DNA of 64,000 bases from Lachnospiraceae bacterium AB2028 (GTDB taxonomy: Bacteria; Bacillota; Clostridia; Lachnospirales; Lachnospiraceae): assembly GCA_000621425.1 (NCBI GenBank), contig JHYJ01000015.1, positions 1-64,000 of the forward strand, in the 5' to 3' direction. Each line of letters begins with the position of its first letter. Position 1 is the first letter of the stretch. Position numbers and translations under genes: made by a program. The notes under the pieces were generated by a model, which was not told where the DNA came from, searched no databases, and saw only the letters and a list, made by a program, of their open reading frames with translations. Positions 1 to 14,853 of this stretch are shown one piece after another.

Positions 1-99
1 GTTGGTGATGGTAAAGGACTTGAAAAGAACTTCTCCATCGGTGTTAGTGATAAAGCAATCATGCTTATCTTTAGCGACATCAATTCCTACAAAAATCAT
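1..99 (-). CDS. IS110-family transposase, N-terminal fragment (runs off the left edge)
   Basis: Reading leftwards from an ATG at 99, the first 33 codons give MIFVGIDVAKDKHDCFI and continue past the window edge. The GIDVAKDKHD stretch is the first acidic motif of the RuvC-like DEDD domain typical of IS110-family recombinases. A GGAGG ribosome site lies at 106-110 on the minus strand, seven bases before the ATG, which fixes the start. Only the N-terminus is visible, so it is not known whether the gene is intact. It is divergent from the lipoprotein gene at 358. Confidence 0.82.
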   Translation of the reverse strand, partial: MIFVGIDVAKDKHDCFITNTDGEVLFKSFTITN

Positions 100-290
100 A
101 TAGGACCTCCTTAAAATAGATTGATACTGTTTTAAGATCCACAGGGCTCTTTGCAATCGTAACCTACTTCTTGATAAACCGTCATGCGGTAACTAACTGA
201 TTAACAAATAAACAAAGAGACTGTGGTTGGAGCCTTTCGAAAACCATTAAGTGGTAGGAGACATTCACCAATCCACAGTATCTTAAAATA
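100..290 (-). ncRNA. candidate IS110 bridge-RNA region upstream of the transposase
   Basis: About 190 noncoding bases precede the transposase start. They contain a long hairpin, ACTGTGGTTGG (220-230) pairing with CCAATCCACAGT (268-279), with a smaller ACCA/TGGT stem inside. An outer pair, TTTTAAGAT (about 129-137) with ATCTTAAAA (280-288), brackets the region. In IS110-group elements the noncoding stretch between the left end and the recombinase gene encodes a structured bridge RNA that selects target and donor. Position, length and folding agree with that. The element boundary and transcription are not visible, so this is an inference. Confidence 0.35.
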
Positions 291-1092: not shown

Positions 1093-1161
1093 ACCAAGTA
1101 AGCAAGAAAAATGACCGACTACGCAGGAATCGTTGGTTTTTTGTAAGCACATTGATATATT
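1093..1161 (+). promoter_or_regulatory. LytTR-type promoter A: two 12-bp direct repeats plus -10 box
   Basis: ACCAAGTAAGCA (1093-1104) and ACCGACTACGCA (1114-1125) start exactly 21 bp apart. A -10 box TATATT (1156-1161) follows the second repeat after 30 bp. No good -35 is seen, as expected for an activated promoter. The same layout occurs at 2134, 11201 and, on the minus strand, 14853. It would drive the leader-peptide genes at 1256-2123 with an untranslated leader of about 85 bases. Confidence 0.7.
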
Positions 1162-1255
1162 CAAACTATCAGGAACAGCAAAAGCGATGCAGCAGAATGA
1201 TTTTTGAAAGATCAGGAAACATCTGCATCCGTAGGAAAATAAGGAGGAAATAGAT

Positions 1256-1555
1256 ATGGCAGAAAATATTAAGTTAAATGATGAGGCAATGGCAAAGGCA
1301 GCAGGCGGAGAGCTTGATCCCTTCAAGGAAATAGCAAGGATTACCGGAGTGGTTCTGGTAAATCCCCTTCCCGACCACCCGGATTCTTACATCTGGGATG
1401 ACTGTCAGAAAAACGGATATGCCGTATACGAGATAGACGGACATTTTATGGCAATAGCCAAGGGAAGTCTGGAGGCTTTCAATCCCGGTGACAGTGTTTA
1501 CTACAAGCAGATACGCGGCTTCTACGGTTATGAGATTACCGGAAGGGCTGAATAA
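1256..1555 (+). CDS. double-glycine leader secreted protein 1
   Basis: A 99-residue protein starting with an acidic leader that ends in DEAMAKAAGG (Gly-Gly at residues 17-18), the type of site cut by C39 peptidase domains of ABC exporters such as the one at 2701. About 81 residues remain after cleavage, far longer than a classical small bacteriocin. The mature part has one Cys and alternating hydrophobic and charged segments suggestive of a small beta-barrel rather than a modified peptide core. The ATG has a strong AGGAGG site. It is first in a run of three leader genes (spacings 24 and 13 bp). Function is unknown. Toxin, signal or adhesive surface protein are all possible. Confidence 0.72.
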   Translation: MAENIKLNDEAMAKAAGGELDPFKEIARITGVVLVNPLPDHPDSYIWDDCQKNGYAVYEIDGHFMAIAKGSLEAFNPGDSVYYKQIRGFYGYEITGRAE

Positions 1556-1579
1556 AAAATTGCAGCGGAGGAAAAAGAT

Positions 1580-1855
1580 ATGGCAGATAATAATATGAAA
1601 CTAGATGATGAGATGATGGCAAAGGCCACGGGTGGTTCATCAGAGCCGACCAGCGATCCAAAGTTCAATATTGGAGACAGGGTAACATTTGAACTGAATT
1701 ATAATGACGGATCGATTATGATCACAGGATCAGTAAAAAGCTATCATTGGAGTTCTTTCGCCGACACTTGGCAGTACGACATCTTAGCTGATAACGACCC
1801 CTTTGGTCATCCGGAAGAGAAGAACATCTATGAAAAGCATCTTAGTCTGATATAA
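1580..1855 (+). CDS. double-glycine leader secreted protein 2
   Basis: A 91-residue protein whose leader ends in LDDEMMAKATGG (Gly-Gly at 18-19), nearly identical to the leaders of its neighbours. The predicted mature product has about 72 residues, and its pattern (GDRVTFEL, then GSVKSYHW, then WQYDILADND) resembles small SH3-like barrels. That fold is my inference, not a recognised domain hit. There is no Cys, so disulfides or lanthionines are unlikely. GGAGG lies eight bases before the ATG. It is co-transcribed with the genes at 1256 and 1869 and presumably exported by the C39 ABC protein at 2701. Confidence 0.72.
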   Translation: MADNNMKLDDEMMAKATGGSSEPTSDPKFNIGDRVTFELNYNDGSIMITGSVKSYHWSSFADTWQYDILADNDPFGHPEEKNIYEKHLSLI

Positions 1856-1868
1856 GGAGGAAAGTACG

Positions 1869-2123
1869 ATGACAGATAATAAGAATATGAAACTTGATGA
1901 TGAGCTGATGATGCAGGCAAGCGGCGGCGTGACAGGAGATGGCGTGACCAGGTTTGACGCAGAAGGTACGGTAGTTAAGTATCTGGGCGACCAGCTTTAC
2001 CAGGTATGCTTAAGTGACGGCGGCGAAGTGACTGCAACCTTTAACGAAAGGCATATCGTAGCCGAGGGCACTAAGGTAGGCCTAATCGCTATGATGGGCG
2101 GCTGGCGCATGGAAGAAATGTGA
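1869..2123 (+). CDS. double-glycine leader secreted protein 3 (paralogue of protein 4)
   Basis: An 84-residue protein with leader LDDELMMQASGG (Gly-Gly at 19-20) and a mature part of about 64 residues. It is clearly related to the protein at 11343: both have a G-T-[VI]-[VI] strand, a [VL]-x-L/S-D-[GS]-G segment, a HI-x-x-x-G-T-[KR]-VGLI segment and a C-terminal GGW-x-MEE. The order of strands resembles OB-fold proteins such as IF1, which is an impression only. AGGAGG lies close upstream of the ATG. It is last of the three-gene run and is followed by promoter C. Confidence 0.72.
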   Translation: MTDNKNMKLDDELMMQASGGVTGDGVTRFDAEGTVVKYLGDQLYQVCLSDGGEVTATFNERHIVAEGTKVGLIAMMGGWRMEEM

Positions 2124-2133
2124 TGGGTTTTCA

Positions 2134-2203
2134 ACGGAATACGCACGAAAATCAACCGAATATACACACCCCGGCAGGTCCTATATACATCCTTTAGTAT
2201 AAT
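2134..2203 (+). promoter_or_regulatory. LytTR-type promoter C: two 12-bp direct repeats plus -10 box
   Basis: ACGGAATACGCA (2134-2145) and ACCGAATATACA (2155-2166) start 21 bp apart. TATAAT (2198-2203) follows after 31 bp. The flanks also match, since both copies are preceded by TCA. This promoter faces the exporter operon. The -10 box lies only nine bases before the ATG at 2213, so the transcript would be leaderless or nearly so. Confidence 0.7.
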
Positions 2204-2212
2204 TATATAGTT

Positions 2213-2704
2213 ATGGGAGATACAGAGAACACAACCATTTTCCGCGACAAGTCCATAGAGCGTGTCTCTTCACCGGACCAGCTTAATGATTATATAAAGC
2301 TTTCAAATCCCGGTGTGTGGTTCATCCTTTGTGCTATTTTGGTGATACTGGCAGGTGCCATAGTCTTCGGGACGGTGGGACATATAGATTCTACCGTTCC
2401 CGGAGTCGGCATATCAAGGGATGGCCTGATGGTCTGCCTTATTAAAAAAGAATACGGTGACAGATTCACTGATGACATGAAGGTCAGGATAGACGGCAAG
2501 ACCTATTCAGTGGACTTGCAGACGCCGGAGCCTGTCACTGTTTGGGAAGATACAAATGCATATGCCCTGACAGTCGGTGACATGCAGCCCGGTGAGTGGG
2601 TTTATGAATTCTTGGTGGACGGTACTTTTACGGACGGAGCTTATGACATAGAGCTCGTTACGGAGAGTATCAGTCCCCTTTCTTTTCTTTTTGGTCAGCA
2701 ATGA
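2213..2704 (+). CDS. HlyD-like NHLM secretion adaptor, short form
   Basis: A 163-residue membrane protein. Its N-terminus (IFRDKSIERVSSPDQLNDYI, residues 9-28) is characteristic of NHLM bacteriocin-system secretion proteins, and one transmembrane helix follows (about 36-57). After the helix is a short beta-rich domain (GIxxxGLMVCLIKKEY and later strands) without the long coiled-coil hairpin usual in HlyD/MFP adaptors, so this is a reduced version. It should span the membrane and link to the ABC proteins that follow. The stop overlaps the start of the next gene (ATGA-type coupling). No Shine-Dalgarno site precedes the ATG. Confidence 0.78.
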   Translation: MGDTENTTIFRDKSIERVSSPDQLNDYIKLSNPGVWFILCAILVILAGAIVFGTVGHIDSTVPGVGISRDGLMVCLIKKEYGDRFTDDMKVRIDGKTYSVDLQTPEPVTVWEDTNAYALTVGDMQPGEWVYEFLVDGTFTDGAYDIELVTESISPLSFLFGQQ

Positions 2705-4887
2705 AGGATAAAAAAGGCAGGGTCAGACAACCGGTAAAGAAAGGCGTGACAAAGGTTCCTTTCATCATGCAGATGGAGGCACTTGAATGTGGTGCGGCTT
2801 CACTGGCAATGGTCCTTGCATATTATGGCAAATGGATTCCCCTTGAGCAGGTAAGAAGAGACTGCGGCGTATCAAGGGATGGTTCCAATGCCCTGAATAT
2901 CCTGAAGGCGGCCCGTAATTACGGCCTTGAGGCCTCAGGATATCGTTATGAGCCGGAGTACCTGAGGGATAACGGCACTTTCCCCTGCATAGCGCACTGG
3001 GAATTCAACCATTTCGTAGTAGTGTGCGGTTTCAGGAAAGACAAGGTCTATCTTAATGATCCTGCAAAGGGAACCGTTGTAATTTCGATGCAGGAATTCG
3101 ATGAAAAATTCACCGGCATCTGCATACAGCTTTCACCGTCGGAAAATTTTGTCCCTGAAGGCAAGCCCCGTTCCACAATCGATTTTGCGAAAAAGCGTCT
3201 GGCAGGCTGTGGAGTAGCCATAGCTTTTGTGGTGGTGACAGGAATCATTTCATCGTTGATCGGAGTGATCAACCCCGTCTTTTCCAGAATATTTATGGAC
3301 AGACTGCTGACTGGCACTGATCCGGGCTGGCACGTTCCATTCATCATAGTAATGTCGGCATTTGGCTTTATCCAGATACTGATGCAGTTCATACAGGCAA
3401 TCTATTCCAGGCGTATCGAAGGAAAAATGTCTGTATACGGCACATCTTCCTATATGTGGAAGATATTAAACCTTCCTATGGAATTCTATTCCCAGCGTTA
3501 TGCAGGCGACATTTTAGCCAGAAGAAGCGGTAATGCAGGCATATCCGGTTCCCTTATAAATACTTTGGCGCCACTTGTTCTTCAGGCAGTGATGATGGTT
3601 TTTTATCTTGTGGTCATGTTAAAAAACAGCGTGCTTTTAACGCTGATAGGTATTTCTTCAATTGTCATAAATATGTTTGTGGCAAGTTTCATCTCAAAAA
3701 GGCGAATTAATCTTTCCAGGGTGCAGATGCGTGACAGCGGAAAGCTTGCATCATGCACTACTTCCGGCATCGAGATGATAGAGACCATAAAAGCCAGCGG
3801 TGCAGAAGAAGGATATTTTCAGAAGTGGGCAGGCTATCAGGCGAGTGTAAATACCCAGCAGGTTGCTTTTGCAAGGCTCAACCAATACTTAGGAAATGTT
3901 CCGAGCATCGTGTCCCTTTTTACAGATACCCTGGTACTTATGCTGGGAGTTTATCTTACTATGGAGGGCAAATTTACTGTAGGTATGATCATGGCCTTTC
4001 AGGGATTCCTGGGCTCCTTTACCGCACCGGCTACCACATTTATTTCAGCCGGTCAGACCCTGCAGGAGCTTAAGACCGACATGGAACGGATAGAGGATGT
4101 AATGGAATATCCTGCTGATGAGAACAGTGCGATGAGGCAGCCTACAGGGGAAGTGAGCTATAAGAAACTCAAAGGCCGGGTAGAAATGAAAAATGTGACC
4201 TTCGGTTATTCCCGGCTGGCAGAGCCGCTAATAAGCGGTTTTGACTTAAAGCTTGAGCCCGGAAGCCGTGTGGCATTTGTAGGATCCAGCGGCTGTGGAA
4301 AATCTACATTATCCAAGCTTATTTCAGGCCTTTATGTTCCCTGGGAAGGGGAGATTCTTTTTGACGGCAAGCCCATAAAGGAAATAGACAGGAGTGTTTT
4401 CACAGGATCATTAGCTGTTGTGGATCAGGACATCATAATGTTTGAGGACACCATTGCATCAAATATCAGGATGTGGGACGAGACTATAGAGGATTTCGAA
4501 GTGATAGCAGCGGCAAGGGATGCGCAGATTCACAGTGACATCATCCAGCGTGAAAACGGCTATGACCACAAGATGATAGAAGGCGGAAATGATTTTTCCG
4601 GCGGACAAAGGCAGAGGATGGAGATCGCAAGGGTGCTTGCCCAGGATCCCACCATAGTAATACTGGACGAGGCCACATCGGCACTTGATGCCAAGACTGA
4701 ATATGATGTGGTAAATGCTATCCGGGACAGGGGTATCACCTGCATAGTGATAGCCCATAGGCTGAGTACTATCAGGGACTGTGACGAGATCATCGTCCTG
4801 GATAAGGGAAAAGTAGTTGAGCGAGGCAGGCATGAAGATCTTTATGCCAAAGGCGGATTATATAAAGAGCTGGTATTGAGTGAGTAG
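2701..4887 (+). CDS. NHLM-type ABC exporter with C39 peptidase domain
   Basis: A 728-residue fusion. Residues about 15-150 form a C39 peptidase: ALECGAASLAMVLAYYG holds the catalytic Cys30, then NHFVVV (His) and LNDPAKG (Asp). A six-helix ABC membrane domain follows (about 165-440). The C-terminal ATPase has Walker A GSSGCGKST, signature FSGGQRQRMEIARVL and Walker B IVILDEATSALD. It should cut leaders after Gly-Gly and export the cargo. The obvious substrates are the four leader proteins at 1256, 1580, 1869 and 11343. It overlaps the adaptor gene by four bases and is followed three bases later by the second ABC gene. Confidence 0.93.
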   Translation: MKDKKGRVRQPVKKGVTKVPFIMQMEALECGAASLAMVLAYYGKWIPLEQVRRDCGVSRDGSNALNILKAARNYGLEASGYRYEPEYLRDNGTFPCIAHWEFNHFVVVCGFRKDKVYLNDPAKGTVVISMQEFDEKFTGICIQLSPSENFVPEGKPRSTIDFAKKRLAGCGVAIAFVVVTGIISSLIGVINPVFSRIFMDRLLTGTDPGWHVPFIIVMSAFGFIQILMQFIQAIYSRRIEGKMSVYGTSSYMWKILNLPMEFYSQRYAGDILARRSGNAGISGSLINTLAPLVLQAVMMVFYLVVMLKNSVLLTLIGISSIVINMFVASFISKRRINLSRVQMRDSGKLASCTTSGIEMIETIKASGAEEGYFQKWAGYQASVNTQQVAFARLNQYLGNVPSIVSLFTDTLVLMLGVYLTMEGKFTVGMIMAFQGFLGSFTAPATTFISAGQTLQELKTDMERIEDVMEYPADENSAMRQPTGEVSYKKLKGRVEMKNVTFGYSRLAEPLISGFDLKLEPGSRVAFVGSSGCGKSTLSKLISGLYVPWEGEILFDGKPIKEIDRSVFTGSLAVVDQDIIMFEDTIASNIRMWDETIEDFEVIAAARDAQIHSDIIQRENGYDHKMIEGGNDFSGGQRQRMEIARVLAQDPTIVILDEATSALDAKTEYDVVNAIRDRGITCIVIAHRLSTIRDCDEIIVLDKGKVVERGRHEDLYAKGGLYKELVLSE

Positions 4888-4890
4888 CGT

Positions 4891-7071
4891 ATGGGATGGT
4901 TTGACGATCAGATAAGATCACGAAAACAGAATGACAGACAGGATTTTGACCATGCCTTTATGAAGATAGCGGCAGCGGTTACAGGGGATAAGTCTGCCCT
5001 CAATGCTACCGACGATGCCATGGTGCAGAGTGCGGTTAATGACATAATGCGTTACTACCATATACCGCCCAGGGAGATTCCGTCAAAGGTCCGCACCATA
5101 GAGGACCAGCTGGAGTATGTGCTTCATCCGTCGGGGGTAATGTATCGAAGGGTTGAACTTAAAAAGGGCTGGCACAAAGATGCGTACGGCGCGATGCTGG
5201 GTTTTAGGAAGTCTGATAATGCGCCGGTGGCATTGATGCCCTTCGGACTTTCGCATTACAGGTTTTGGGATCCGGCTAAAAACAGTTATGTAGTCATTAA
5301 CAAGAAGAATGCGGATGAGTTTGAAAAGGATGCATTTGCTTTCTACAGACCATTTCCGTTAAAGAAACTGGGGATCATTGATCTGCTTAAATATATTGTG
5401 GGTGTGCTTGAGCCTGCGGATTATGTGATGGTAGTACTTGCTGCGCTCATAGTAACTCTTGTGGGAATGCTGACTCCTAAGATAAGCCTTTTCCTTTTCA
5501 GTGAGGTCATAGAGGCAAAAGATATATCGCTGCTTGTTTCCACGGGAATATTCATGCTTTTTGCATCCATAGGTTCCATGATGTTCTCGTCCGCAAGGAC
5601 GCTGATACATACAAGAATCGATACCAAGATGAGCATATCGGTGGAAGCGGCTACCATGATGAGGATACTTTCACTGCCTGCAGGTTTTTTCAAGGACTAT
5701 AGTTCCGGCGAACTGTCATCCAGGTCTTCTTATGTAAATTCGCTCTGCAATACCCTGGTGTCCGTAATACTTAGTACCGGACTCAGTTCTATCTTTTCGC
5801 TGCTGTACATTACACAGATATTTGAATTTGCCCCGGGCCTGGTGGTGCCTTCCATAAGCATCACACTTATAACCGTGACATTCACTGTAGTGTCATCATT
5901 GCTGCAGATGCGTCTAAGCAAGAAGTCAATGCTGCTGGGGTCAAAGGAAAGCGGCTTAAGCTATGCAGAAGTGACAGGCATACAGAAGATAAAGCTTTCC
6001 GGCGCGGAGATGAGGGCCTTTTCCAGATGGGGCGACCTATATGCAAAGTGTGCTGAACTGGACTACAACCCGCCGCTTTTTCTCAAGATAAACGGAGTCA
6101 TCAGTTCTGCAATATCAATAGTTGGAACAATAATTATCTACAATGCTGCAATAATGTCTCATGTAAATGTTGCGGAATATTATGCCTTCAATACAGCCTA
6201 CGGAATGGTGTCCGGAGCATTCATGTCACTTTTCGGACTGGCTCTTACTGCTGCTAATATCAAGCCAATATTCGACATGGCAGAACCCATACTTAAGACA
6301 GAGCCGGAGGTTTCGGAAAATAAGGAAGTCCTGAATAAGATATCCGGTGGCATAGAGATAAACAACCTGACCTTTAAATATAAAGAAAACTCTCCTGTCA
6401 TACTTGATGATATTTCATTAAAGATAAAGCCGGGACAGTATGTGGCCATAGTGGGCAAGACGGGATGCGGTAAGTCCACGCTGGTAAGATTATTGCTCGG
6501 ATTTGAAAAGCCTACAAAAGGCGGCATCTATTATGACGGAAAGGATATAAATTCAGTAGACCTTAAATCCCTGCGTAAGCATATCGGAGTAGTAACGCAG
6601 AACGGAAAGCTTTTTCAGGGTGACGTATTTTCAAACATAGTTATCGCAGCACCACACCTGACGCTTAAGGATGCATGGGAGGCTGCGATGATTGCTGGCA
6701 TTGCTGATGATATCCGCAATATGCCAATGGGAATGAATACCCTTATATCAGAGGGAAGCGGAGGAATATCAGGCGGACAGAAGCAGAGGCTCATGATTGC
6801 CAGGGCTGTTGCACCGAAACCCAGGCTGCTTATTTTTGATGAGGCTACTTCAGCCTTGGACAATATTACTCAGAAAAAAGTATCCGAAGCCCTTGATGGG
6901 ATGAAATGCACAAGGATAGTTATAGCCCACAGGCTTTCTACCATAAAGCAGTGCGACCGCATTCTGGTTTTTGACGGCGGCCATATTGTGGAAGACGGAA
7001 CCTATGATGAACTGGTGGAAAAGAAGGGATATTTTGCAGACCTGATTGAGAGACAGAGGGTGGATATATAA
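4891..7071 (+). CDS. NHLM-type ABC transporter, second (non-peptidase) subunit
   Basis: A 726-residue ABC protein with no C39 domain. Instead it has an N-terminal extension of about 160 residues typical of the second NHLM exporter subunit, then an ABC membrane domain (helices about 175-460). The ATPase has Walker A GKTGCGKST, signature ISGGQKQRLMIARAV and Walker B LLIFDEATSALD. Paired ABC half-transporters like this are usual in NHLM systems, so it probably forms a heterodimer with the protein at 2701. The gene starts three bases after the previous stop. Confidence 0.9.
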   Translation: MGWFDDQIRSRKQNDRQDFDHAFMKIAAAVTGDKSALNATDDAMVQSAVNDIMRYYHIPPREIPSKVRTIEDQLEYVLHPSGVMYRRVELKKGWHKDAYGAMLGFRKSDNAPVALMPFGLSHYRFWDPAKNSYVVINKKNADEFEKDAFAFYRPFPLKKLGIIDLLKYIVGVLEPADYVMVVLAALIVTLVGMLTPKISLFLFSEVIEAKDISLLVSTGIFMLFASIGSMMFSSARTLIHTRIDTKMSISVEAATMMRILSLPAGFFKDYSSGELSSRSSYVNSLCNTLVSVILSTGLSSIFSLLYITQIFEFAPGLVVPSISITLITVTFTVVSSLLQMRLSKKSMLLGSKESGLSYAEVTGIQKIKLSGAEMRAFSRWGDLYAKCAELDYNPPLFLKINGVISSAISIVGTIIIYNAAIMSHVNVAEYYAFNTAYGMVSGAFMSLFGLALTAANIKPIFDMAEPILKTEPEVSENKEVLNKISGGIEINNLTFKYKENSPVILDDISLKIKPGQYVAIVGKTGCGKSTLVRLLLGFEKPTKGGIYYDGKDINSVDLKSLRKHIGVVTQNGKLFQGDVFSNIVIAAPHLTLKDAWEAAMIAGIADDIRNMPMGMNTLISEGSGGISGGQKQRLMIARAVAPKPRLLIFDEATSALDNITQKKVSEALDGMKCTRIVIAHRLSTIKQCDRILVFDGGHIVEDGTYDELVEKKGYFADLIERQRVDI

Positions 7072-7122
7072 GCTGAATCCATAGGCTGTAAGTGATTATT
7101 GCAAAAGGAGGTATGACCGGAA

Positions 7123-7422
7123 ATGGAAATTAAGTGGGACTTTAAAGGAAAAGACCTGAATGTAGGGCTCAGTGGGAAGTTAGATACCTTAAGTGCCATG
7201 GGGCTTGATGACAGATTTGCGGAGCTTCCGGAAGAAGTTATAAATATATTTTTTGATCTGAACGGCCTGGAGTATATAGCATCTGCCGGATTAAGAGTCC
7301 TTTATTGGGCACAGGAGTATACAGAGGACAAGGGCGGACGGATGGTTGTCAGGAATGTTTCGCCGGAGGTCCTGGAGATTCTGGATACGACAGGATTTAA
7401 GGATTACATCAATATTGAGTGA
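7123..7422 (+). CDS. STAS-domain anti-sigma-factor antagonist (SpoIIAA/RsbV-like)
   Basis: A 99-residue single STAS domain. The key stretch IASAGLRVL places the regulatory phosphoserine at Ser54. In this family an anti-sigma kinase phosphorylates that Ser and a PP2C phosphatase removes the phosphate. Both activities are candidates in the very next gene. AAAGGAGG lies at about 7103-7110, 12 bases before the ATG; an out-of-frame ATG at 7112 gives only a short dead end. It stands within the exporter operon, so partner switching may control export or its transcription. No sigma factor is seen nearby. Confidence 0.88.
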   Translation: MEIKWDFKGKDLNVGLSGKLDTLSAMGLDDRFAELPEEVINIFFDLNGLEYIASAGLRVLYWAQEYTEDKGGRMVVRNVSPEVLEILDTTGFKDYINIE

Positions 7423-7426
7423 GCCT

Positions 7427-9532
7427 ATGAAGAAAAGGGGTGCGTCGCTTTCTGTAAAGTTCATCGCAGGCTTTGTGGTGCTGGGGCTGATCATCAGCAT
7501 AATCAGCATCTGCTATGGCTTTGACAAATACAAGGTCAGCGTAGAGCAGAGCTATAACGATAACGGCTACCAGATAGCGCGGATAGTAAGGACCATAATA
7601 ACCGACGAAGAGATAAAGCACTATGCGGAATTCGTAAAGGGTGACGTCAATAAGGAAGCCTGTGCGAAAGAGGCTTCTACGGAAAGATATCTTGAGATAG
7701 AGGAAGAACTTTCCCAGCTAAGGGAAGCAACCGGGGCCAATGATATCTATGTGGGTTATATCGACCTGAAGGAATTGCATTCCTATCAGGGTACCAAAGA
7801 GGGATGGTATCCCCTTAGATATATGTTTGATGTGTATGAGAAACCGGAACTTAAGTACACCCTGGGTGATGCCAGTGCCATCAATCCTGAATTTATAGAA
7901 GACTGTGACGATATCATGACTACGGGTGAACGTCCGACGAACCATTTTGTATCACAGAGTGAGTACGGCTATAACACATCGGCACTGATGCCCGTGCTGA
8001 TAGACGGTGAAGTGGTAGCGATCATAGATGTTGAAATTCCTATGGCCACGCTGCAGGCAGAAATTTACGAGCATATTTCCGGTACGGTTTTTACCATTGT
8101 GGCGGTGATCGTAGTTTTCATGGCAGCATATATACTCTGGTTCCATCGCAGGGTAATAGACCCCATCAAGCGGGTTTCGTCAGAGGCTGAAGCCTTTACT
8201 TTGGAAATTGCAAAGGATTCCGAAGATATAGGGTATACCTTGTCGGATAAGCTTTTGAATATACGGACCGGGGACGAAATAGAGCTGTTAGCCAGATCCG
8301 TATATAACATGGAAAAAAATATAGACGAAGCCACTAAGGACTTAGTCAGGGTGACAAAAGAGTCTGAAAGGGAAAAGGCAGAGCTTAGCATAGCAAATAA
8401 GATACAGAAGGATATACTTCCGACAGTTTATCCTGCTTTTCCGGACAGGCATGAGTTTGATATATCTGCATCAATGACACCGGCAAGGATGGTGGGGGGC
8501 GACTTCTATGATTATTTTTTCATAGACGAGTCACATCTGGTAATGGTAATAGCGGATGTTACCGGCAAGGGAATTCCTGCGGCGCTATTTATGATCATAG
8601 CAAAGACTATGATAAAGAACAGGGCAATGTCCGGAGGACTGCCGTCAGAGATACTATTTGATGCAAACAACCAGCTGCATGAAGGCAACGACTCAAAGAT
8701 GTTCGTGACCGTATGGCTGGGAATACTTGATATAAATACGGGCGTGCTTATGTCTGCCAATGCCGGGCATGAGTATCCCATAATCATGGGACAGGATAAG
8801 GAATACAGACTGCTAAAGGATCGTCACGGACTGGTGATGGGACTCAGGCAGAATATAAAGTATACCGATACGGAGACAGTACTTTCACCGGGAGATACAG
8901 TGTTTGTTTATACCGACGGTGTGCCTGATGCGGAAAGTGCAGAAGGTAAAGCCTTTGGAATGGAGAGGCTCCTTGGTGTACTGAATTCCGGTAAGGAGAG
9001 AAATGTTCCGGATACACTGAATGCCGTCCTTGATTCTGTAAAGGCATACTCGGATATGGACTCACAGTTTGATGATATCACTATGCTCTGCGTGCGTTAT
9101 ACGGGAGATGAGAGCGGTAAGTACAAAGAACTCACACTTCCTGCGGTCATAGAGAATGCACCTGTGGCGATGGAATTCTTAGAGAAAGAATTAAAAAGAG
9201 TCCGTTGCGGAGACAAGCTGAACAGACGAATTGTTCTGGCAATGGAAGAACTCTTTGTAAATGTTGTTTCCTATGCGTATCCTGATGGAGAGGGAAATAT
9301 AAATCTGAAGTTAAGCTATCCGGCGCTTGGTACGGTTCAGATAGAAATCACTGACAGCGGAGTGATGTACAATCCATTAACGAAACCTGATCCTGATATG
9401 GAGATTCCTTTGAAAAAGAGAGGCAAGGGCGGAATGGGAATATATCTGGCCAAGAAGATAATGGATGAAATGGAATATGAGTATAAGGAAGGCTGTAATC
9501 ACCTGACAATGAGAAAGCGTTATGTGGTATAG
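7427..9532 (+). CDS. membrane SpoIIE-type PP2C phosphatase fused to an RsbW-like ATPase domain
   Basis: The ATG at 7427 gives a 701-residue protein, preferred over longer readings that overlap the STAS gene. A transmembrane helix (about 8-30) precedes an extracellular sensor region, and a second helix lies near 215-240, followed by a HAMP-like linker. The SpoIIE/PP2C domain shows GGDFYDYF, DVTGKG and DDITML with the metal-binding aspartates. The last 135 residues are a GHKL ATPase of the anti-sigma kinase class (EELFVNVVSYAY N-box, ITDSGVMYNP, GKGGMGIYL). One chain therefore carries both the kinase-like and phosphatase parts that act on a STAS protein. It starts four bases after the STAS stop. 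Confidence 0.88.
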   Translation: MKKRGASLSVKFIAGFVVLGLIISIISICYGFDKYKVSVEQSYNDNGYQIARIVRTIITDEEIKHYAEFVKGDVNKEACAKEASTERYLEIEEELSQLREATGANDIYVGYIDLKELHSYQGTKEGWYPLRYMFDVYEKPELKYTLGDASAINPEFIEDCDDIMTTGERPTNHFVSQSEYGYNTSALMPVLIDGEVVAIIDVEIPMATLQAEIYEHISGTVFTIVAVIVVFMAAYILWFHRRVIDPIKRVSSEAEAFTLEIAKDSEDIGYTLSDKLLNIRTGDEIELLARSVYNMEKNIDEATKDLVRVTKESEREKAELSIANKIQKDILPTVYPAFPDRHEFDISASMTPARMVGGDFYDYFFIDESHLVMVIADVTGKGIPAALFMIIAKTMIKNRAMSGGLPSEILFDANNQLHEGNDSKMFVTVWLGILDINTGVLMSANAGHEYPIIMGQDKEYRLLKDRHGLVMGLRQNIKYTDTETVLSPGDTVFVYTDGVPDAESAEGKAFGMERLLGVLNSGKERNVPDTLNAVLDSVKAYSDMDSQFDDITMLCVRYTGDESGKYKELTLPAVIENAPVAMEFLEKELKRVRCGDKLNRRIVLAMEELFVNVVSYAYPDGEGNINLKLSYPALGTVQIEITDSGVMYNPLTKPDPDMEIPLKKRGKGGMGIYLAKKIMDEMEYEYKEGCNHLTMRKRYVV

Positions 9533-9555
9533 CGAAAGGGGGAGGTTTGAAAGAC

Positions 9556-10158
9556 ATGCTTGAGTTTGATGACCTGCAGGGGCAGGGAATAAATGTTGAT
9601 GAAGGCATAGGCTTTACCGGAAGCAAAGAAAAATATCTTGCTGCGCTGCAGAGATTTTACAGAAGGGCAGAAAAAAATATTGAGTCAATCAGTGATGATT
9701 CATCCCGGAAAAAAGGTGATGAACTGACGATAACGGTTCACGCACTTAAGAGCAATGCCAGGATGATAGGTGCCGACAGGCTGGGTTCTATTGCAGAAGA
9801 GATGGAACTTTCCGGCAAGGCGGGAGATTATGATAAGCAGTTATCTTTAACAGATGAATTGCTTGGTGAGTATCGGAAAGTGCTGGATATCATAAAGCCT
9901 TATGGAGAGATGCAGGAGGTTCATCCCTCATCTGAAATCTCAGCAGATGAGGCAACGCGGGCCGGAAAAGCCTTGATAGATGCACTGGAGGATTATGATG
10001 ATGAGGCAGCATTGGAACAGCTGCATATACTGATGCATTACCCATTCAGGTTTACTCTTATCAATGTGCTTAAGAATGCTGAGGCTGATATTAAAGACTT
10101 TGAATATACTGAGGCTTTGCTGAAAGCAAGACGGGTAATAAGTCAGATAGAGGATTAA
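9556..10158 (+). CDS. HPt (histidine phosphotransfer) domain protein
   Basis: About 200 residues. The N-terminal half is a four-helix HPt domain with VHALKSNARMIGA, His62 being the phosphorylatable residue. The C-terminal half (from about 125) is helical and acidic and unassigned. I place the start at the ATG 10 bases after GGAGG (9541-9545); a TTG at 9547 lies too close to that ribosome site. It is the last gene of the exporter and partner-switch run. Its phosphodonor is not obvious here; the histidine kinase at 62496 is one distant candidate. Confidence 0.8.
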   Translation: MLEFDDLQGQGINVDEGIGFTGSKEKYLAALQRFYRRAEKNIESISDDSSRKKGDELTITVHALKSNARMIGADRLGSIAEEMELSGKAGDYDKQLSLTDELLGEYRKVLDIIKPYGEMQEVHPSSEISADEATRAGKALIDALEDYDDEAALEQLHILMHYPFRFTLINVLKNAEADIKDFEYTEALLKARRVISQIED

Positions 10159-10230
10159 TGATATTTCTGTATTAGGATGCACAGAAGTACAGTGATGACA
10201 GATTTGAGATGATTTTGAAATAGAAAATAT

Positions 10231-10253
10231 TTGTTATATAAGTAATATAACAA
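10231..10253. promoter_or_regulatory. inverted repeat upstream of the LytTR gene
   Basis: TTGTTATAT (10231-10239) and ATATAACAA (10245-10253) form a perfect 9-bp inverted repeat around AAGTA. It sits 21 bases before the LytTR start and could be an operator or a short hairpin in the leader. It differs from the direct-repeat sites of the LytTR promoters. A related ATATTGTTA/TAACAATAT repeat occurs at 18636-18664. Confidence 0.4.
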
Positions 10254-10274
10254 CAACTATTTAGTGAGGGGAAA

Positions 10275-10754
10275 ATGTCGGATTTAGTTGATATCAAATT
10301 GATAATTGATAAGGAGTGGCCAAAGCTTACTGTTTTTATCAAGAACAATGAACGTAATGAGGATGTAGAGGGAATCATTGCAGCTGTCCAGTCATACTCT
10401 GAAAAGAAAGTGCCGATGATAGCGGCTTACTTTAAGGGGAGCCTGGTAATGCTTCCACAGAGAAAGATACTCAGATTCTTTGTGGATAACAGAAAGGTGA
10501 TGGTTCAGACTTCTGAGCGTACTTATGAAACAAAGAAACCTTTGTATGAGATTGAGGAAGTGCTTGATAAAAAAAGATTTGTGCGTATATCCCAGTCAGA
10601 GACAATAAACATACGAAGGGTGAAGAATTTTGATTTCTCAGCGGCCGGAACTATAGGCGTGGAGCTGGAGAACGGAGAAAATACCTGGGTTGCAAGAAGA
10701 AGAATGAAAGATGTGAGAGCATTGCTTGCAGGCGGAAAAGCAGAGGAAAACTAA
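10275..10754 (+). CDS. LytTR-family DNA-binding regulator
   Basis: A 159-residue protein with no receiver domain. The C-terminal about 100 residues are a LytTR DNA-binding domain (ILRFFVDNRKVMVQT, RFVRISQSETINIRRV, then VARRRMKDV). LytTR proteins bind two 9-12 bp direct repeats one or two helical turns apart. The four direct-repeat promoters in this locus, spaced 21 bp, are its likely targets. It is followed two bases later by a DUF3021 membrane protein. Such LytTR plus membrane-inhibitor pairs (LytTR regulatory systems, for example HdrRM and BrsRM of Streptococcus mutans) control bacteriocin genes. Confidence 0.88.
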   Translation: MSDLVDIKLIIDKEWPKLTVFIKNNERNEDVEGIIAAVQSYSEKKVPMIAAYFKGSLVMLPQRKILRFFVDNRKVMVQTSERTYETKKPLYEIEEVLDKKRFVRISQSETINIRRVKNFDFSAAGTIGVELENGENTWVARRRMKDVRALLAGGKAEEN

Positions 10755-10756
10755 GT

Positions 10757-11191
10757 ATGAAAGATATTAAGGCTAAATTGGTGAATAAATGTCTGGTAGG
10801 GGCGTTGGTCGGAATGATGATCCCGCTGATCATATATCTGTTTGGTGGTTATGGCATGGAGATGCTTACAAACAGGCCTTTATTTATCGCACAGTTCATC
10901 GGTTCAGCTGTCTTGGGGACAATTGCCGTGGGTGGTACTGTTGTATATGAGATAGAGAGCTGGGGATTGAGGCGGGCGTCATTTGCGCACTATCTTGTTA
11001 CTTTGGCTGCATTTATTTTTACCAATCTGGTTTTAAGGTGGTTTGATTCAACTAAATATCTGCTGTTTGCGTTAGGGTCTTTTACAGTGGTATACCTGGC
11101 AATATGGGTAGTTGTGTGCATCGCAAGTGCTGCGGAGATAAAGAAAATGAACAGATATCTGCAGCAGATGGGTGAAGACGAGGAAAATTGA
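10757..11191 (+). CDS. DUF3021-type four-helix membrane protein, LytTR partner
   Basis: A 144-residue protein with four predicted membrane helices (about 11-31, 44-64, 75-94, 104-124) and a charged cytoplasmic tail (KKMNRYLQQMGEDEEN). Size, topology and its place two bases behind a LytTR gene match the DUF3021 family. In analogous LytTR regulatory systems the membrane partner restrains the DNA-binding protein, so I infer an inhibitory role. Promoter B begins 10 bp after its stop. Confidence 0.8.
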   Translation: MKDIKAKLVNKCLVGALVGMMIPLIIYLFGGYGMEMLTNRPLFIAQFIGSAVLGTIAVGGTVVYEIESWGLRRASFAHYLVTLAAFIFTNLVLRWFDSTKYLLFALGSFTVVYLAIWVVVCIASAAEIKKMNRYLQQMGEDEEN

Positions 11192-11200
11192 CCGGTTTTG

Positions 11201-11269
11201 ACCACTTGGACATTAAAATCGACCGACTGCGCAGGATTTATGGAAAAGGGTTTTGACGGCTGATATAGT
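11201..11269 (+). promoter_or_regulatory. LytTR-type promoter B: two 12-bp direct repeats plus -10 box
   Basis: ACCACTTGGACA (11201-11212) and ACCGACTGCGCA (11222-11233) start 21 bp apart. TATAGT (11264-11269) follows after exactly 30 bp. The downstream repeat is the better match, differing from that of promoter A at a single base. It would drive the fourth leader gene with a leader of about 65 bases. Confidence 0.68.
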
Positions 11270-11342
11270 AAAACTATCGAAACGAGGAACCGGAAAGAAT
11301 AAAAAACCGGAAAACTAAAATCTAAAAATGGAGGACAAAGAT

Positions 11343-11594
11343 ATGACAGATGTGAATAAGAAAATGGACGACAGCGTAATGGCACAGGCAAACGGCGGAA
11401 CAGGCGCGAAGCTTACACAGTATGACGACTACGGCACAATTATATCCAAGACTGATGACGGCTACCTTGTAAAGCTTGACAGCGGTGCAGAGATAACAGT
11501 GGTATACGAAGCAAAGCATATAATCCCAAATGGAACAAGAGTAGGCTTGATACTGCTTGCCGGCGGCTGGGGCATGGAAGAACTTAAAGATTGA
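11343..11594 (+). CDS. double-glycine leader secreted protein 4 (paralogue of protein 3)
   Basis: From the ATG at 11343, eight bases after GGAGG, an 83-residue protein is read with leader MDDSVMAQANGG (Gly-Gly at 18-19) and a mature part of about 64 residues. An upstream in-frame ATG at 11328 overlaps the ribosome site and is less likely. Shared features with the protein at 1869: GTIISKTDDGYLVKLDSG, then HIIPNGTRVGLI, then GGWGMEEL. The gene has its own LytTR-type promoter and stands apart from the other three, so copies may be differentially expressed. Cleavage and export by the ABC protein at 2701 are inferred. Confidence 0.72.
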   Translation: MTDVNKKMDDSVMAQANGGTGAKLTQYDDYGTIISKTDDGYLVKLDSGAEITVVYEAKHIIPNGTRVGLILLAGGWGMEELKD

Positions 11595-11696
11595 AACATA
11601 GATAATGCTGAAGAGTAACTAAATAAGGGGTGGTTGTCGGTGTAGATGATACAAAATGACAGCCATCCTGTCTTATAAAGAAATGGGGTGTATTAA

Positions 11697-12200
11697 ATGG
11701 ATAAGAAAAAGAGTTTCACCGGAAAAATGGCAAAATTCGCAGGGGTCATTGGGGTATTTACCATAGTATGTGCAGTATTATGTATCATAGGTGCTGTTAT
11801 GGGTTTTGCAATGAACGGTTTTATCAATCAGTATTATGCAGATCCGGAAAATATGAAAGCAGTAGCCGGTTCCCTTAATGCTGATATGGGAGTTTTCAGC
11901 ATACTTCCATTTGAATCCATCAAAGCAGCCGGAAATTACGGAGTATATTTTGGACTTCAGTTATTATGTGCAGCAGTTATCTGCGGTGTATATGTATATC
12001 TGTTCTTCACGCTGAAGAAGGTGCTTTCAAATATCGCTGATACCGGAGCTGCGTTCACAGAAGCTGAAGCAGGCAGCTATAAGGTAAATTTCATTGTTAT
12101 CACAGTTATCTTCGTATTGTTTGAAGGACTGGCTGCAGGTGTAGTCGTGGGAATGATCTTATGCGGACTATATAGTGTATCTGTGGCAGCAAGAAAATAA
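11697..12200 (+). CDS. four-helix membrane protein, possibly DUF2975-like
   Basis: A 167-residue integral membrane protein with hydrophobic stretches at about 14-38, 78-102, 120-142 and 143-163. The segment VLSNIADTGAAFTEAEA between the second and third helices resembles the loop of DUF2975-type membrane proteins. I regard this as a weak family call. GGGGTG near 11685 serves as ribosome site. It stands between the fourth leader gene and a strong terminator, and could be a membrane partner or self-protection protein for the secretion locus, but nothing in it shows this. Confidence 0.6.
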   Translation: MDKKKSFTGKMAKFAGVIGVFTIVCAVLCIIGAVMGFAMNGFINQYYADPENMKAVAGSLNADMGVFSILPFESIKAAGNYGVYFGLQLLCAAVICGVYVYLFFTLKKVLSNIADTGAAFTEAEAGSYKVNFIVITVIFVLFEGLAAGVVVGMILCGLYSVSVAARK

Positions 12201-12222
12201 AAATGCTATAAAGTGATAGAGT

Positions 12223-12256
12223 AAATTCCCCTGGTGAGGTACCAGGGGAATTTTTT
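12223..12256 (+). terminator. rho-independent terminator
   Basis: A 13-bp perfect stem, AAATTCCCCTGGT (12223-12235) with ACCAGGGGAATTT (12241-12253), loop GAGGT and a T run ending at 12256. It ends the plus-strand transcripts and lies between convergent genes. It may also work weakly in the other direction. Confidence 0.9.
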
Positions 12257-12268
12257 GTGTTAAGAAGA

Positions 12269-13018
12269 TTAGGTAGCCTGACCCGCTTTCTTTACAGAGA
12301 CTATTAGTACTATCGTTGCTGTAATGATCATCATTAATGCTATATGTTGGGACGATGACAGTCCGTCAGGCCAGATGCCCCTGGCTTTATCCCCCCTGAA
12401 GAATTCAAGCGCGAAACGGCATATGCCATAACTGATAAGATAAATCTCCGTGGTATGGTTGTCGTTTTTTCTTATTTTCTGTATGACCATCAGCATGATG
12501 AATATCAGAAGGTTGCAGAAACTTTCGATGATCTGTACCGGAAACAGTGTAACTCCCGGGAACTTTATGTTAGGTATCCCCCATGACGACACTATACCGT
12601 AACAGCAACCGCTCATGGCACAGCCTATCCTGCCAAAAATATGGAACAGTGGTATTGATGGTGTCATATAGTCCACTACTTTCCGTACCGGGTAATGCCT
12701 AATGCATGCAAAGAGGGCACTGCCAAGCAGTACCCCCATCATGCCACCATAGAAGACTATGCCTCCGTGCATGAGATTGTCCATAATTGCATCAAGTGAT
12801 ATGCCGTCCTCGGGTATAGAGGTTATCGTATATACCAGGCGGCTTACTACGAGCATCAGTCCGATGCACATTGCAAGGCATAACAGCATATCCGCGAAGT
12901 CGAAGCTTATCTTCTCCATACGGAAGGCGTTGAACATGCATACCGCAAATATGCCAAGCGCTCCCATAAAGTAATAGGAAGAAATCTCATATCCGAAAAT
13001 TTCTATATACGGATGAAT
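12269..13018 (-). CDS. Lgt-like prolipoprotein diacylglyceryl transferase family protein
   Basis: A membrane protein with Lgt hallmarks: HGGIVFYGGMMG, FGRIGCAMSGCCYG and ALEFFRGDKARG. The Cys-rich GCCYG form marks a paralogous branch, so it may modify something other than ordinary prolipoproteins. The first ATG in frame (12967) lacks a ribosome site and would remove the conserved N-terminus. An ATT codon at 13018, seven bases after GGGGGA, restores IHPYIEIFGYEISSYYF, as in other Lgt proteins, giving 249 residues. I infer an ATT start. It is last in a minus-strand operon under promoter D. Confidence 0.8.
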   Translation of the reverse strand: MHPYIEIFGYEISSYYFMGALGIFAVCMFNAFRMEKISFDFADMLLCLAMCIGLMLVVSRLVYTITSIPEDGISLDAIMDNLMHGGIVFYGGMMGVLLGSALFACIRHYPVRKVVDYMTPSIPLFHIFGRIGCAMSGCCYGIVSSWGIPNIKFPGVTLFPVQIIESFCNLLIFIMLMVIQKIRKNDNHTTEIYLISYGICRFALEFFRGDKARGIWPDGLSSSQHIALMMIITATIVLIVSVKKAGQAT

Positions 13019-13031
13019 GGCTCAGTCCCCC

Positions 13032-13862
13032 TTAATATAATACTTCTGAGGTTTCGCCCTGGTTTACTGTTACGGATGGGCTTACTATCTCGCTTGAGTA
13101 GGAAGAGTCTACAACTGACATGGACACATTTACAGCATCAGCAGCTGTAAATGTCAGACCGGTATCTCCGCCATAAAAACTGCCCTTCCAGGTAAGGAGT
13201 ATATTTCCGTTTTCATCTGTTTCAGATATAAGGTCAACTCCGGGTTGTGGTGTCATTATACCCTTCCAGTTTTCAGGAGTAGCATCTTCACCTACGTTAA
13301 GGTAGAACTCACCGGGCTGCCAGCCTGCATCCGCAAGCTTCTTGGAAATGACAGCCTTGACTTCAAATATGGCACTGTCACCGTCACCGCTTATCCAGGA
13401 TACGGAAGTGATGACAGGATTATCCAGCTGGGTAAGATCGATTTCGGATGTATCTTCGGTTGTTTCTGTTGCCGGATCCGAGGTCTCGTCCGTTGTATTC
13501 TCCGTAGCCGGCTCTTCCACATCGTTTGTAACATTTTCCTGAGTATCAGACTTTATGACCTCGATACTGGTTACTTTGACATGCGGATCTTCCATGAGTT
13601 TAAGACATTCCTTTTTTGTCATTTCCTCAACAGTATCATAATGACCTCCGTTGCAGTCGCATCCGTCGCAATAACCGGGTTCATCATACATGACTTTGAC
13701 CCGGTCATCATCTTTCAGCGGATCCAGCACTTCTTTCCAGTCCGTATTACTGTCGGCATAAACAACATTATTCCCGCTTACGGAAGACACTCCCAGTGCC
13801 GTCCCTCCAAGCAGACCAAACATCAGCACACCTGTCAGTGTTTTTTTGACTACATTTTTCAT
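13032..13862 (-). CDS. secreted protein with N-terminal Cys cluster, function unknown
   Basis: Taking the ATG at 13862 (GAGG nine bases before it; a GTG at 13877 overlaps the ribosome site) gives 276 residues. A Sec signal peptide ends near VVYADS, with no lipobox. Then come a Cys cluster YCDGCDCNGG (four residues of a possible metal site), a T/E-rich linker (about 108-145) that looks disordered, and a C-terminal beta-rich domain of about 130 residues. I do not recognise a family. It lies 13 bp upstream of the Lgt-like gene and 34 bp behind the HExxH membrane gene, so it is probably part of the LytTR regulon. Confidence 0.75.
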   Translation of the reverse strand: MKNVVKKTLTGVLMFGLLGGTALGVSSVSGNNVVYADSNTDWKEVLDPLKDDDRVKVMYDEPGYCDGCDCNGGHYDTVEEMTKKECLKLMEDPHVKVTSIEVIKSDTQENVTNDVEEPATENTTDETSDPATETTEDTSEIDLTQLDNPVITSVSWISGDGDSAIFEVKAVISKKLADAGWQPGEFYLNVGEDATPENWKGIMTPQPGVDLISETDENGNILLTWKGSFYGGDTGLTFTAADAVNVSMSVVDSSYSSEIVSPSVTVNQGETSEVLY

Positions 13863-13896
13863 TATTTTTTTCCTCACTTTCTTAATTACAGTATTT

Positions 13897-14754
13897 CTAA
13901 TTCAGTTTTATTCCCGGTCCGAAGACAAATATATCTATAAGTGTAAGTATTATGCCTATGGCGAAAAGTATCCAGTTGGGTTTTGAAGGAAGCTTATAGA
14001 GGAAACGGCTTTTCTTCGGCGGAAGGGTATGCATAACACCTGTAAACATAAATCCCCAGAAGAACGGCACCCACATCATATTGTAGAGCAGGCCCAGTCC
14101 GATGCTTAGATCACCGGAACCCATTGCAGGCGAGAGCACGGTAACCGCCATGCCAAGGGGATATCCTATTAAAGGCATGATAAGATGCAGCTTAAAGGCA
14201 ACACCGAGCCTTTCTTTTTTGTCCGTATGGTCTTCGATAAAATAGTGTGAAAGATAGTTGAGAAAAAAGAAAACTATCACTATTCCGCCGCCTCCGATGA
14301 TTGAAAGCACTATTCTTATAGCCGTGATCATCCCTGGGTCATCTGAAAAATGTGAAAAAACCTGTCCCCAGTCTCCGGCTCCAAAGAAGCCGCCTATCAT
14401 GAAGTAGCCAATTCCTACGGAAAGGTGAGCGCCTGTATACTGTGTAAGAAAGAGCCTGAGTGTCGGTCCCATTTTTACTTTTATAAGTATGACGGCAAGT
14501 GCTATGCCTATGATGGTATTAAGTATTGATGCACTTCCGCCGGCGACCATTATCCTGTGGAAATATGGCATACCGTCGATATTGATGCTATCAGTTATAG
14601 CATCCACTGCACCGCCGGAATAGTATGTCGGCGTGGCACCATATATAATGTATGTCAGAAGATGGAACAGCTCATGAACCGGCACTGTAAAAAAGATGGC
14701 GATCATTGCTGTGGAAATGCAGTTGATAATGGAAAAATCCTTTTTCGCTTCCAT
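13897..14754 (-). CDS. polytopic membrane protein with HExxH motif (M50-like)
   Basis: A 285-residue protein with about seven hydrophobic segments. HELFH (His27, Glu28, His31) sits in the first helix, as in intramembrane zinc metalloproteases, and AGGSASILNTIIGIALAVIL (about 71-90) resembles the second conserved region of M50 enzymes. No clear NPDG motif is seen, so activity is uncertain. GGGAGG lies shortly before the ATG. It is the first gene of the minus operon and has promoter D. Processing of a secreted or membrane product of this locus is a reasonable guess only. Confidence 0.68.
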   Translation of the reverse strand: MEAKKDFSIINCISTAMIAIFFTVPVHELFHLLTYIIYGATPTYYSGGAVDAITDSINIDGMPYFHRIMVAGGSASILNTIIGIALAVILIKVKMGPTLRLFLTQYTGAHLSVGIGYFMIGGFFGAGDWGQVFSHFSDDPGMITAIRIVLSIIGGGGIVIVFFFLNYLSHYFIEDHTDKKERLGVAFKLHLIMPLIGYPLGMAVTVLSPAMGSGDLSIGLGLLYNMMWVPFFWGFMFTGVMHTLPPKKSRFLYKLPSKPNWILFAIGIILTLIDIFVFGPGIKLN

Positions 14755-14784
14755 GATATATCCTCCCCCTGTATTTATGATAGA

Positions 14785-14853
14785 ATTATATAGTGGAAAG
14801 AAAACAGAATAGTCGCTGTGTGTATATTCTGTCGATTTTTATGTATATTCTGC
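14785..14853 (-). promoter_or_regulatory. LytTR-type promoter D: two 12-bp direct repeats plus -10 box
   Basis: On the minus strand GCAGAATATACA (14853-14842) and ACAGAATATACA (14832-14821) start 21 bp apart, and TATAAT (14790-14785) follows after exactly 30 bp. The second repeat plus flank (AAAATCGAC) matches promoter C (AAAATCAAC). It drives the HExxH, secreted and Lgt-like genes with a leader of about 25 bases. Confidence 0.68.

Follow-up and report, generated by a model that had tools for sequence, protein, structure and literature searches.

A probable LytTR-type regulon marked by paired direct repeats in Lachnospiraceae bacterium AB2028 and its relatives

Do four similarly built promoters in one locus of Lachnospiraceae bacterium AB2028 belong to a single regulon, and which protein reads them? 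We analyzed the first 64,000 nucleotides of contig JHYJ01000015.1 (GenBank assembly GCA_000621425.1), hereafter the window; its contig is labeled C13, and our labels C, L and G denote contigs, loci and genomes. A preliminary description of this DNA had reported four promoters with two 12-bp direct repeats at a spacing of 21 bp, followed after 30-31 bp by a -10 box, and had proposed a candidate regulon read by a LytTR activator. Sequence comparison makes it very likely that the four promoters form one regulon of the LytTR regulatory system (LRS) type. Two related LytTR/DUF3021 modules, one in the window and one on contig C8, probably share its operator code, since such a site also precedes the LytTR/DUF3021 pair on C8.

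Four promoters with one architecture

All four promoters were read directly in the sequence as described. The repeats are ACCAAGTAAGCA and ACCGACTACGCA at promoter 1, ACGGAATACGCA and ACCGAATATACA at promoter 2, ACCACTTGGACA and ACCGACTGCGCA at promoter 3 and, on the minus strand, GCAGAATATACA and ACAGAATATACA at promoter 4, with 30, 31, 30 and 30 bp, respectively, between the second repeat and the -10 box. The distal repeats at 1093 and 11201 are far more degenerate than the proximal ones. The 12-bp repeat itself stood, and its unit was refined to an LRS-type 9-mer extended by RCA.

Within the window, the statistical case is modest, because matrices built from the other three promoters ranked the held-out site 4th (1093), 2nd (2134), 12th (11201) and 4th (14853) in 64 kb. 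The check set by the preliminary description was whether the motif pair is equally frequent at random places. A 33-column model trained on 54 distinct sites, all from relatives, scored the four sites at 37.3 (2134), 30.7 (11201), 30.6 (1093) and 25.7 bits (14853), the top four in the window, and three sites on C8 at 39.8, 37.0 and 23.1 bits. The next best score in the 180.6 kb of the genome scanned was 9.2 bits, and 10 first-order Markov resamples reached no more than 9.5 bits, which argues that the pair is not a chance recurrence. Among wider loci of this genome chosen for half-sites, a place on C9 (L202) with no good -10 reached 11.6 bits. The training is not fully independent of the window, because the relatives' sites were first collected with matrices seeded from the window half-sites. 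A motif-free repeat search upstream of the peptide exporter operon is independent of the window motif; it returned 11/12 or 12/12 repeats with a period of 21 in L125, L128, L131 and L133, the L125 match being a divergent site. Single half-sites are uninformative in this genome (500 matches with at most one mismatch vs 348 for the reversed control; 0 exact matches to ACCGAATARACA vs 2 control matches), and the paired architecture is therefore what is special. The pair scan covered about 339 kb of the genome, overlaps counted, together with the loci of HExxH homologues and leader-profile matches.

The anatomy of the site was drawn from 42 sequences (669 kb), partly overlapping and some chosen for containing a half-site. 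Half-sites paired with a spacing of 21 were counted in 60 distinct contexts; no other spacing from 12 to 60 was seen more than twice. The 64 distinct spacing-21 sites read roughly ACCGAATAGACA - TGAAAAACG - ACCGAATAGACA, with a run of A within the gap. A weak TTG-like -35 begins 10 bp past the second 9-mer, and the -10 peaks 30 bp past the 12-mer, where 32/64 sites have at least 5/6 matches to TATAAT at that single offset. A strong -10 at 29-31 bp was found at 43/64 sites vs 1.9% of random positions (coding sequence included). The geometry is 9-mer, 12 bp, 9-mer, 10 bp, -35, 17 bp, -10.

Sites elsewhere in the genome and in relatives

Contig C8 contains a second LytTR/DUF3021 pair in the same gene order, with proteins 41% and 31% identical to those of the window, followed by response-regulator, Hpt and hybrid-kinase genes. 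Sites lie before this LytTR gene (C8:11683, minus) and before two leader peptide genes (C8:500, plus; C8:2472, minus). A second half-site pattern matched exactly at 14 places, two of which are full sites: C8:2472, already known, and C4 31412, which scores 22.9 bits and has TACAAT at 30 bp. Behind the C4 site lies an HExxH-family gene 53% identical to that of the window; a search at E 0.001 found no further member of the family in this genome. A profile of the leaders only gave ten matches. Nine are plausible as leader peptides and make up six transcription units: C13:1256-2123 (three), C13:11343, C8:624, C8:2328, C8:33467 with 33903 (one unit in our reading) and C10:36578. All six units have a site upstream, the two new ones scoring 31.9 and 17.0 bits. 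The tenth match (C3, E 1.7) falls in a gene that we take to be flagellar, and no site was found upstream of it. Upstream of a second NHLM peptidase/ABC exporter (C2:42717-44849, L119; 885 bits, over the family cut-off) no repeat was found.

Two further candidates in this genome were not counted: a C2 pair (L072) with spacing 20 and 21.8 bits, for want of a good -10, and C8:469 (minus), with spacing 22, a weak -10 and no leader open reading frame (ORF) found behind it. Window positions 1-114 and C8 (L069) positions 1-179 hold pieces of what we presume to be an IS110-type transposase, inside which both contigs start. The orientation of the pieces would fit C8 and C13 being neighbors; if they are, the two LRS modules would form one cluster.

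Among 66 loci encoding exporter relatives, 16 have an ABC subunit at least 77% identical to that of the window (L124-L136, L149, L161, L187). The exporter operon opens with the architecture in eight of the 16 (L125, L126, L128, L129, L131, L132, L133, L135), and in L126, L129 and L135 a STAS gene comes first in that operon; L128/L131 and L126/L129 are near-copies. L161 and L187 carry a variant repeat with the same period before the exporter. None of L124, L127, L130, L134, L136 and L149 showed the architecture ahead of the exporter; two of them, L124 and L149, are short contigs. The best 33-column score in 24 more distant NHLM loci (L137-L148, L150-L160, L175; some short) was 5.7. Three pairs in still more distant NHLM loci (17.7-19.6 bits, no good -10) are at the level of shuffled sequence and were set aside. 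Across the 71 loci L119-L189, 39 pairs exceed 17 bits vs a shuffle mean of 4.7.

A regular expression found 20 leader-peptide ORFs in 19 loci, the window and C8 included, and 14/20 have a site within 450 bp upstream. Three of the six others follow a gene that has a site (window 1580 and 1869; L126 21614), two come after DUF3021 (L128, L131), and L130 9220 is unexplained. Other targets in relatives include genes for response regulators, lipoprotein-like proteins, small membrane proteins and large secreted proteins, and in L133 a site precedes a leader peptide and HExxH pair. The architecture is thus kept in related rumen Lachnospiraceae before exporter, leader-peptide, HExxH and LytTR operons, as the proposed comparison of homologous loci called for. 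That the site recurs ahead of similar sets of genes, both here and in related genomes, supports the candidate regulon.

A separate observation concerns one of the large secreted proteins: in L268 (5564-13861), a 34.2-bit site stands before a 2765-aa protein with Listeria-Bacteroides repeats and a Cthe_2159 domain.

Genes behind the promoters and the regulator

The genes named in the preliminary description were all found behind the promoters, and Pfam recognizes the LytTR/DUF3021 pair within the locus (Table 1). LytTR is the sole Pfam domain of the regulator, in which no receiver domain was found, and the DUF3021 gene begins 3 bp past the LytTR gene. Terminator-like sites on the plus strand between 2213 and 11191 are confined to ORF interiors, and the promoter at 2134 probably serves the LytTR/DUF3021 pair along with the exporter genes. 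The two ABC subunits score above the curated NHLM cut-offs of NCBIfam (928.9 vs 853.3 and 733.4 vs 709.4 bits). The 163-aa HlyD-like partner scores 34.6 bits (positions 1-61 of 421), short of the TIGR03794 cut-off of 156.2 bits. The four window peptides have short GG leaders and match no NCBIfam leader family, the nitrile-hydratase and Nif11 types included, at E 0.1. We guess that the HExxH and Lgt-like genes serve maturation or self-protection. The first ATG of the exporter operon (2213) lies 9 nt past the -10 box (2198) and no ribosome-binding site was seen, so the exporter mRNA may have little or no leader; the corresponding distance from the -10 to the ATG is 6 nt in L136.

Table 1 Promoters and genes of the locus (window coordinates)
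Feature	Position	Strand	Details
Direct-repeat promoter 1	1093..1161	+	repeats 1093-1104, 1114-1125; -35-like TTGGTT 1133-1138; -10 TATATT 1156-1161
Direct-repeat promoter 2	2134..2203	+	repeats 2134-2145, 2155-2166; -10 TATAAT 2198-2203; good -35 absent
Direct-repeat promoter 3	11201..11269	+	repeats 11201-11212, 11222-11233; -10 TATAGT 11264-11269
Direct-repeat promoter 4	14785..14853	-	repeats 14853-14842, 14832-14821; -10 TATAAT 14790-14785
Three GG-leader peptide genes	1256-1555, 1580-1855, 1869-2123	+	behind promoter 1; leader profile matches
Exporter, short HlyD-like gene	2213-2704	+	behind promoter 2
Exporter, C39 peptidase/ABC	2701-4887	+	TIGR03796 (NCBIfam match)
Exporter, ABC	4891-7071	+	TIGR03797 (NCBIfam match)
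STAS, SpoIIE phosphatase/HATPase and Hpt genes	7123..10158	+	probably in exporter transcript
LytTR regulator, type A, 159 aa	10275..10754	+	PF04397, 73.0 bits
DUF3021 membrane protein	10757..11191	+	candidate LytTR inhibitor; PF11457, 78.5 bits
Fourth GG-leader peptide gene	11328..11594	+	behind promoter 3; leader profile match
HExxH membrane protein	14754-13897	-	promoter 4 operon, first gene
Secreted protein	13877-13032	-	promoter 4 operon, second gene
Lgt-like protein	12967-12269	-	promoter 4 operon, third gene

By analogy with published LRS, from which binding, inhibition, the boost to the regulator's operon and the signal are inferred, the DUF3021 membrane protein would keep LytTR inactive at rest, and some signal would relieve this restraint and free LytTR. 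A LytTR dimer, or two monomers, would then bind both repeats; being separated by two helical turns, these face the same side of the DNA. Bound just upstream of a poor -35, LytTR would recruit RNA polymerase to the good -10. The exporter operon, the GG-leader peptides and the HExxH/Lgt-like operon would be switched on and made together, and the exporter transcript probably reaches the LytTR and DUF3021 genes, which would give positive feedback.

A tree of 56 LytTR proteins places type A (the window protein, 9 rows) and type B (the C8 protein, 15 rows) in one 27-row clade with support 96/91. The upstream-site survey, in which L002, L005, L006, L008 and L066 gave no LytTR match, found a site upstream of 9/12 type-B LytTR genes, defined by an identity of 63.5% or more to the C8 gene. 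The exceptions are L040, L217 and L214, the last with only 170 bp upstream to the contig end. Counted over the tree, a site lies upstream in 10/27 clade rows (L223 included, with its true start) vs 1/29 others (L225, spacing 20). Type-A genes lie mostly inside the exporter operon. Sites were seen in 12/13 genomes with a clade A/B LytTR vs 1/9 without (Fisher P 0.0002, not corrected for kinship); those of G055 came from stretches chosen by exact half-sites. Within 17 of these 22 genomes, the 11 with a clade A/B LytTR contain exact ACCGAATARACA 51 times and the reversed control 7 times; in the 6 NHLM genomes without one, the counts are 5 and 5. The published LRS geometry, the site before LytTR/DUF3021 operons and this clade tracking support a LytTR activator, as had been proposed, as by far the best candidate reader. 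A PDB sequence search with the window LytTR protein returned one weak relative, 3d6w.

The C8 LytTR/DUF3021 pair is at least as good a candidate reader as the window pair. One could go further and propose that the sites are read mainly by the C8 type-B LytTR, the window pair having other targets or only modulating it. This would suit the frequent site directly upstream of type-B operons (9/12, vs none for the window LytTR) and the sites in genomes whose clade members are all type B (G036, G039, G040, G042). However, the same sites exist in genomes with only type A (G041, G043), so that types A and B probably share the code, and a site also precedes the type-A gene of L209; reading mainly by type B is rather unlikely. 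That some different factor, another LytTR or a two-component regulator, reads the repeats while the LytTR/DUF3021 genes are mere regulon members appears quite improbable: the autoregulatory placement of the site distinguishes the clade (10/27 vs 1/29, the latter with another spacing) and the geometry is that of LRS, although the genome holds eight LytTR genes in total and the C8 operon includes response-regulator and hybrid-kinase genes. Recent duplication of a promoter segment or chance likeness with no shared regulator is hardly credible, since other species and unlinked loci retain the spacing and the -10 distance while differing in the surrounding sequence; it draws on the modest window-only statistics, with 11201 ranking 12th when held out.

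Several findings weigh against one LRS regulon. The upstream-site survey found no repeat directly upstream of the window LytTR/DUF3021 pair, and the 117-bp gap before the window LytTR gene contains a weak promoter-like match. The exact half-site is not enriched in 35 genomes of the genus (25 vs 37 control matches). The co-occurrence ignores kinship, and its genomes were searched unequally, most through one locus. No site was seen in G044, which has a type-B LytTR. Conversely, the 2.1-Mb genome of L136 yielded no clade A/B LytTR, yet the locus carries a weak site of 14.6 bits. Finally, three loci of the genus on the type-B branch, in which DUF3021 comes first (order reversed), showed no site.

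Exported peptides and comparison with known systems

The peptide cores (from residue 31) encoded at 1869-2123 and, in the fourth leader gene, at 11343-11594 are predicted to fold as a five-stranded small beta barrel (block pLDDT, predicted local distance difference test, 88-93), and these peptides have homologues in L125, L128, L133, L161 and L187. The best Foldseek matches are IF-1/eIF1A proteins (best E 0.0017, none reaching E 0.001), and Pfam eIF-1a matches the peptides at E 0.012, below its cut-off. Peptides of another kind, with a GG leader and a Cys-rich, zinc-ribbon-like core, are encoded behind sites in L133 (5890-6222) and L263 (8322-8654); the L133 gene directly precedes the HExxH gene.

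The sites define, by sequence, an LRS-type regulon outside the streptococci, and the exported peptide family behind them is little known. Because its operator model was able to predict targets at unlinked loci, how LRS work and what this peptide family does can be tested directly in culturable rumen bacteria. More tentatively, and on balance doubtfully, the sister LRS modules with one code may run a dispersed genome-wide program of rumen Lachnospiraceae that exports a family of small beta-barrel proteins, seemingly unmodified and with one IF-1-like subgroup, along with dedicated membrane proteins, as a social or competitive secretome with STAS/SpoIIE/Hpt and hybrid-kinase inputs.

PlnC/PlnD, AgrA and ComE are LytTR response regulators with receiver domains that act with histidine kinases in bacteriocin quorum sensing. 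The present system resembles these in its LytTR domain and in having bacteriocin-type operons preceded by paired direct repeats with a separation of about two helical turns, but its regulator shows the LytTR domain alone. NHLM precursors carry leaders of the nitrile-hydratase or Nif11 type. The exporter is NHLM/NHLP-like in that both ABC subunits are over the cut-off (TIGR03796, TIGR03797), and it differs in its short, below-cut-off HlyD-like partner (TIGR03794) and in peptides that lack an NCBIfam leader family. Among the matches listed in open-licence literature on LytTR/DUF3021, LRS and NHLM/NHLP, no description of this regulon was found, and LytTR and NHLM are absent from the main text of a 2026 rumen bacteriocin survey (PMC13289728).

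The closest relatives are the LRS. In the sections of Zou et al. (2018; PMC6193735) used here, an LRS consists of a LytTR regulator and a membrane inhibitor, some inhibitors being DUF3021 proteins, and its own promoter has 9-bp repeats that are usually separated by 12 bp and usually end 10 bp before the -35. Over 4600 putative LRS are reported there, with characterization only in Streptococcus mutans and with binding and autoregulation demonstrated for HdrR. Like HdrRM and BrsRM as presented in those sections, the modules described here have a receiver-less LytTR regulator followed by a membrane protein, DUF3021 being one of the two LRS DUFs (domains of unknown function). They also share the 12 bp between 9-mers and, mostly, the 10 bp to the -35, as well as control, here predicted, of genes of the bacteriocin type and of the operon encoding the regulator. 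Since the geometry is the same as that of published LRS, the kind of system, which the preliminary description did not name, is already known. The LRS repeat before the regulator's own operon is found at C8 (11683, minus), and in the window only via the promoter at 2134, if LytTR is co-transcribed. The differences are the 12-base repeat with its RCA extension and the conserved A run in the gap, neither of which is in the tables of PMC6193735 among those sections, the poor -35, the two sister modules that probably share one code, and the type-A pair with no repeat directly upstream. Unlike the published LRS, the operons here also include an NHLM exporter and STAS/SpoIIE/Hpt or hybrid-kinase genes.

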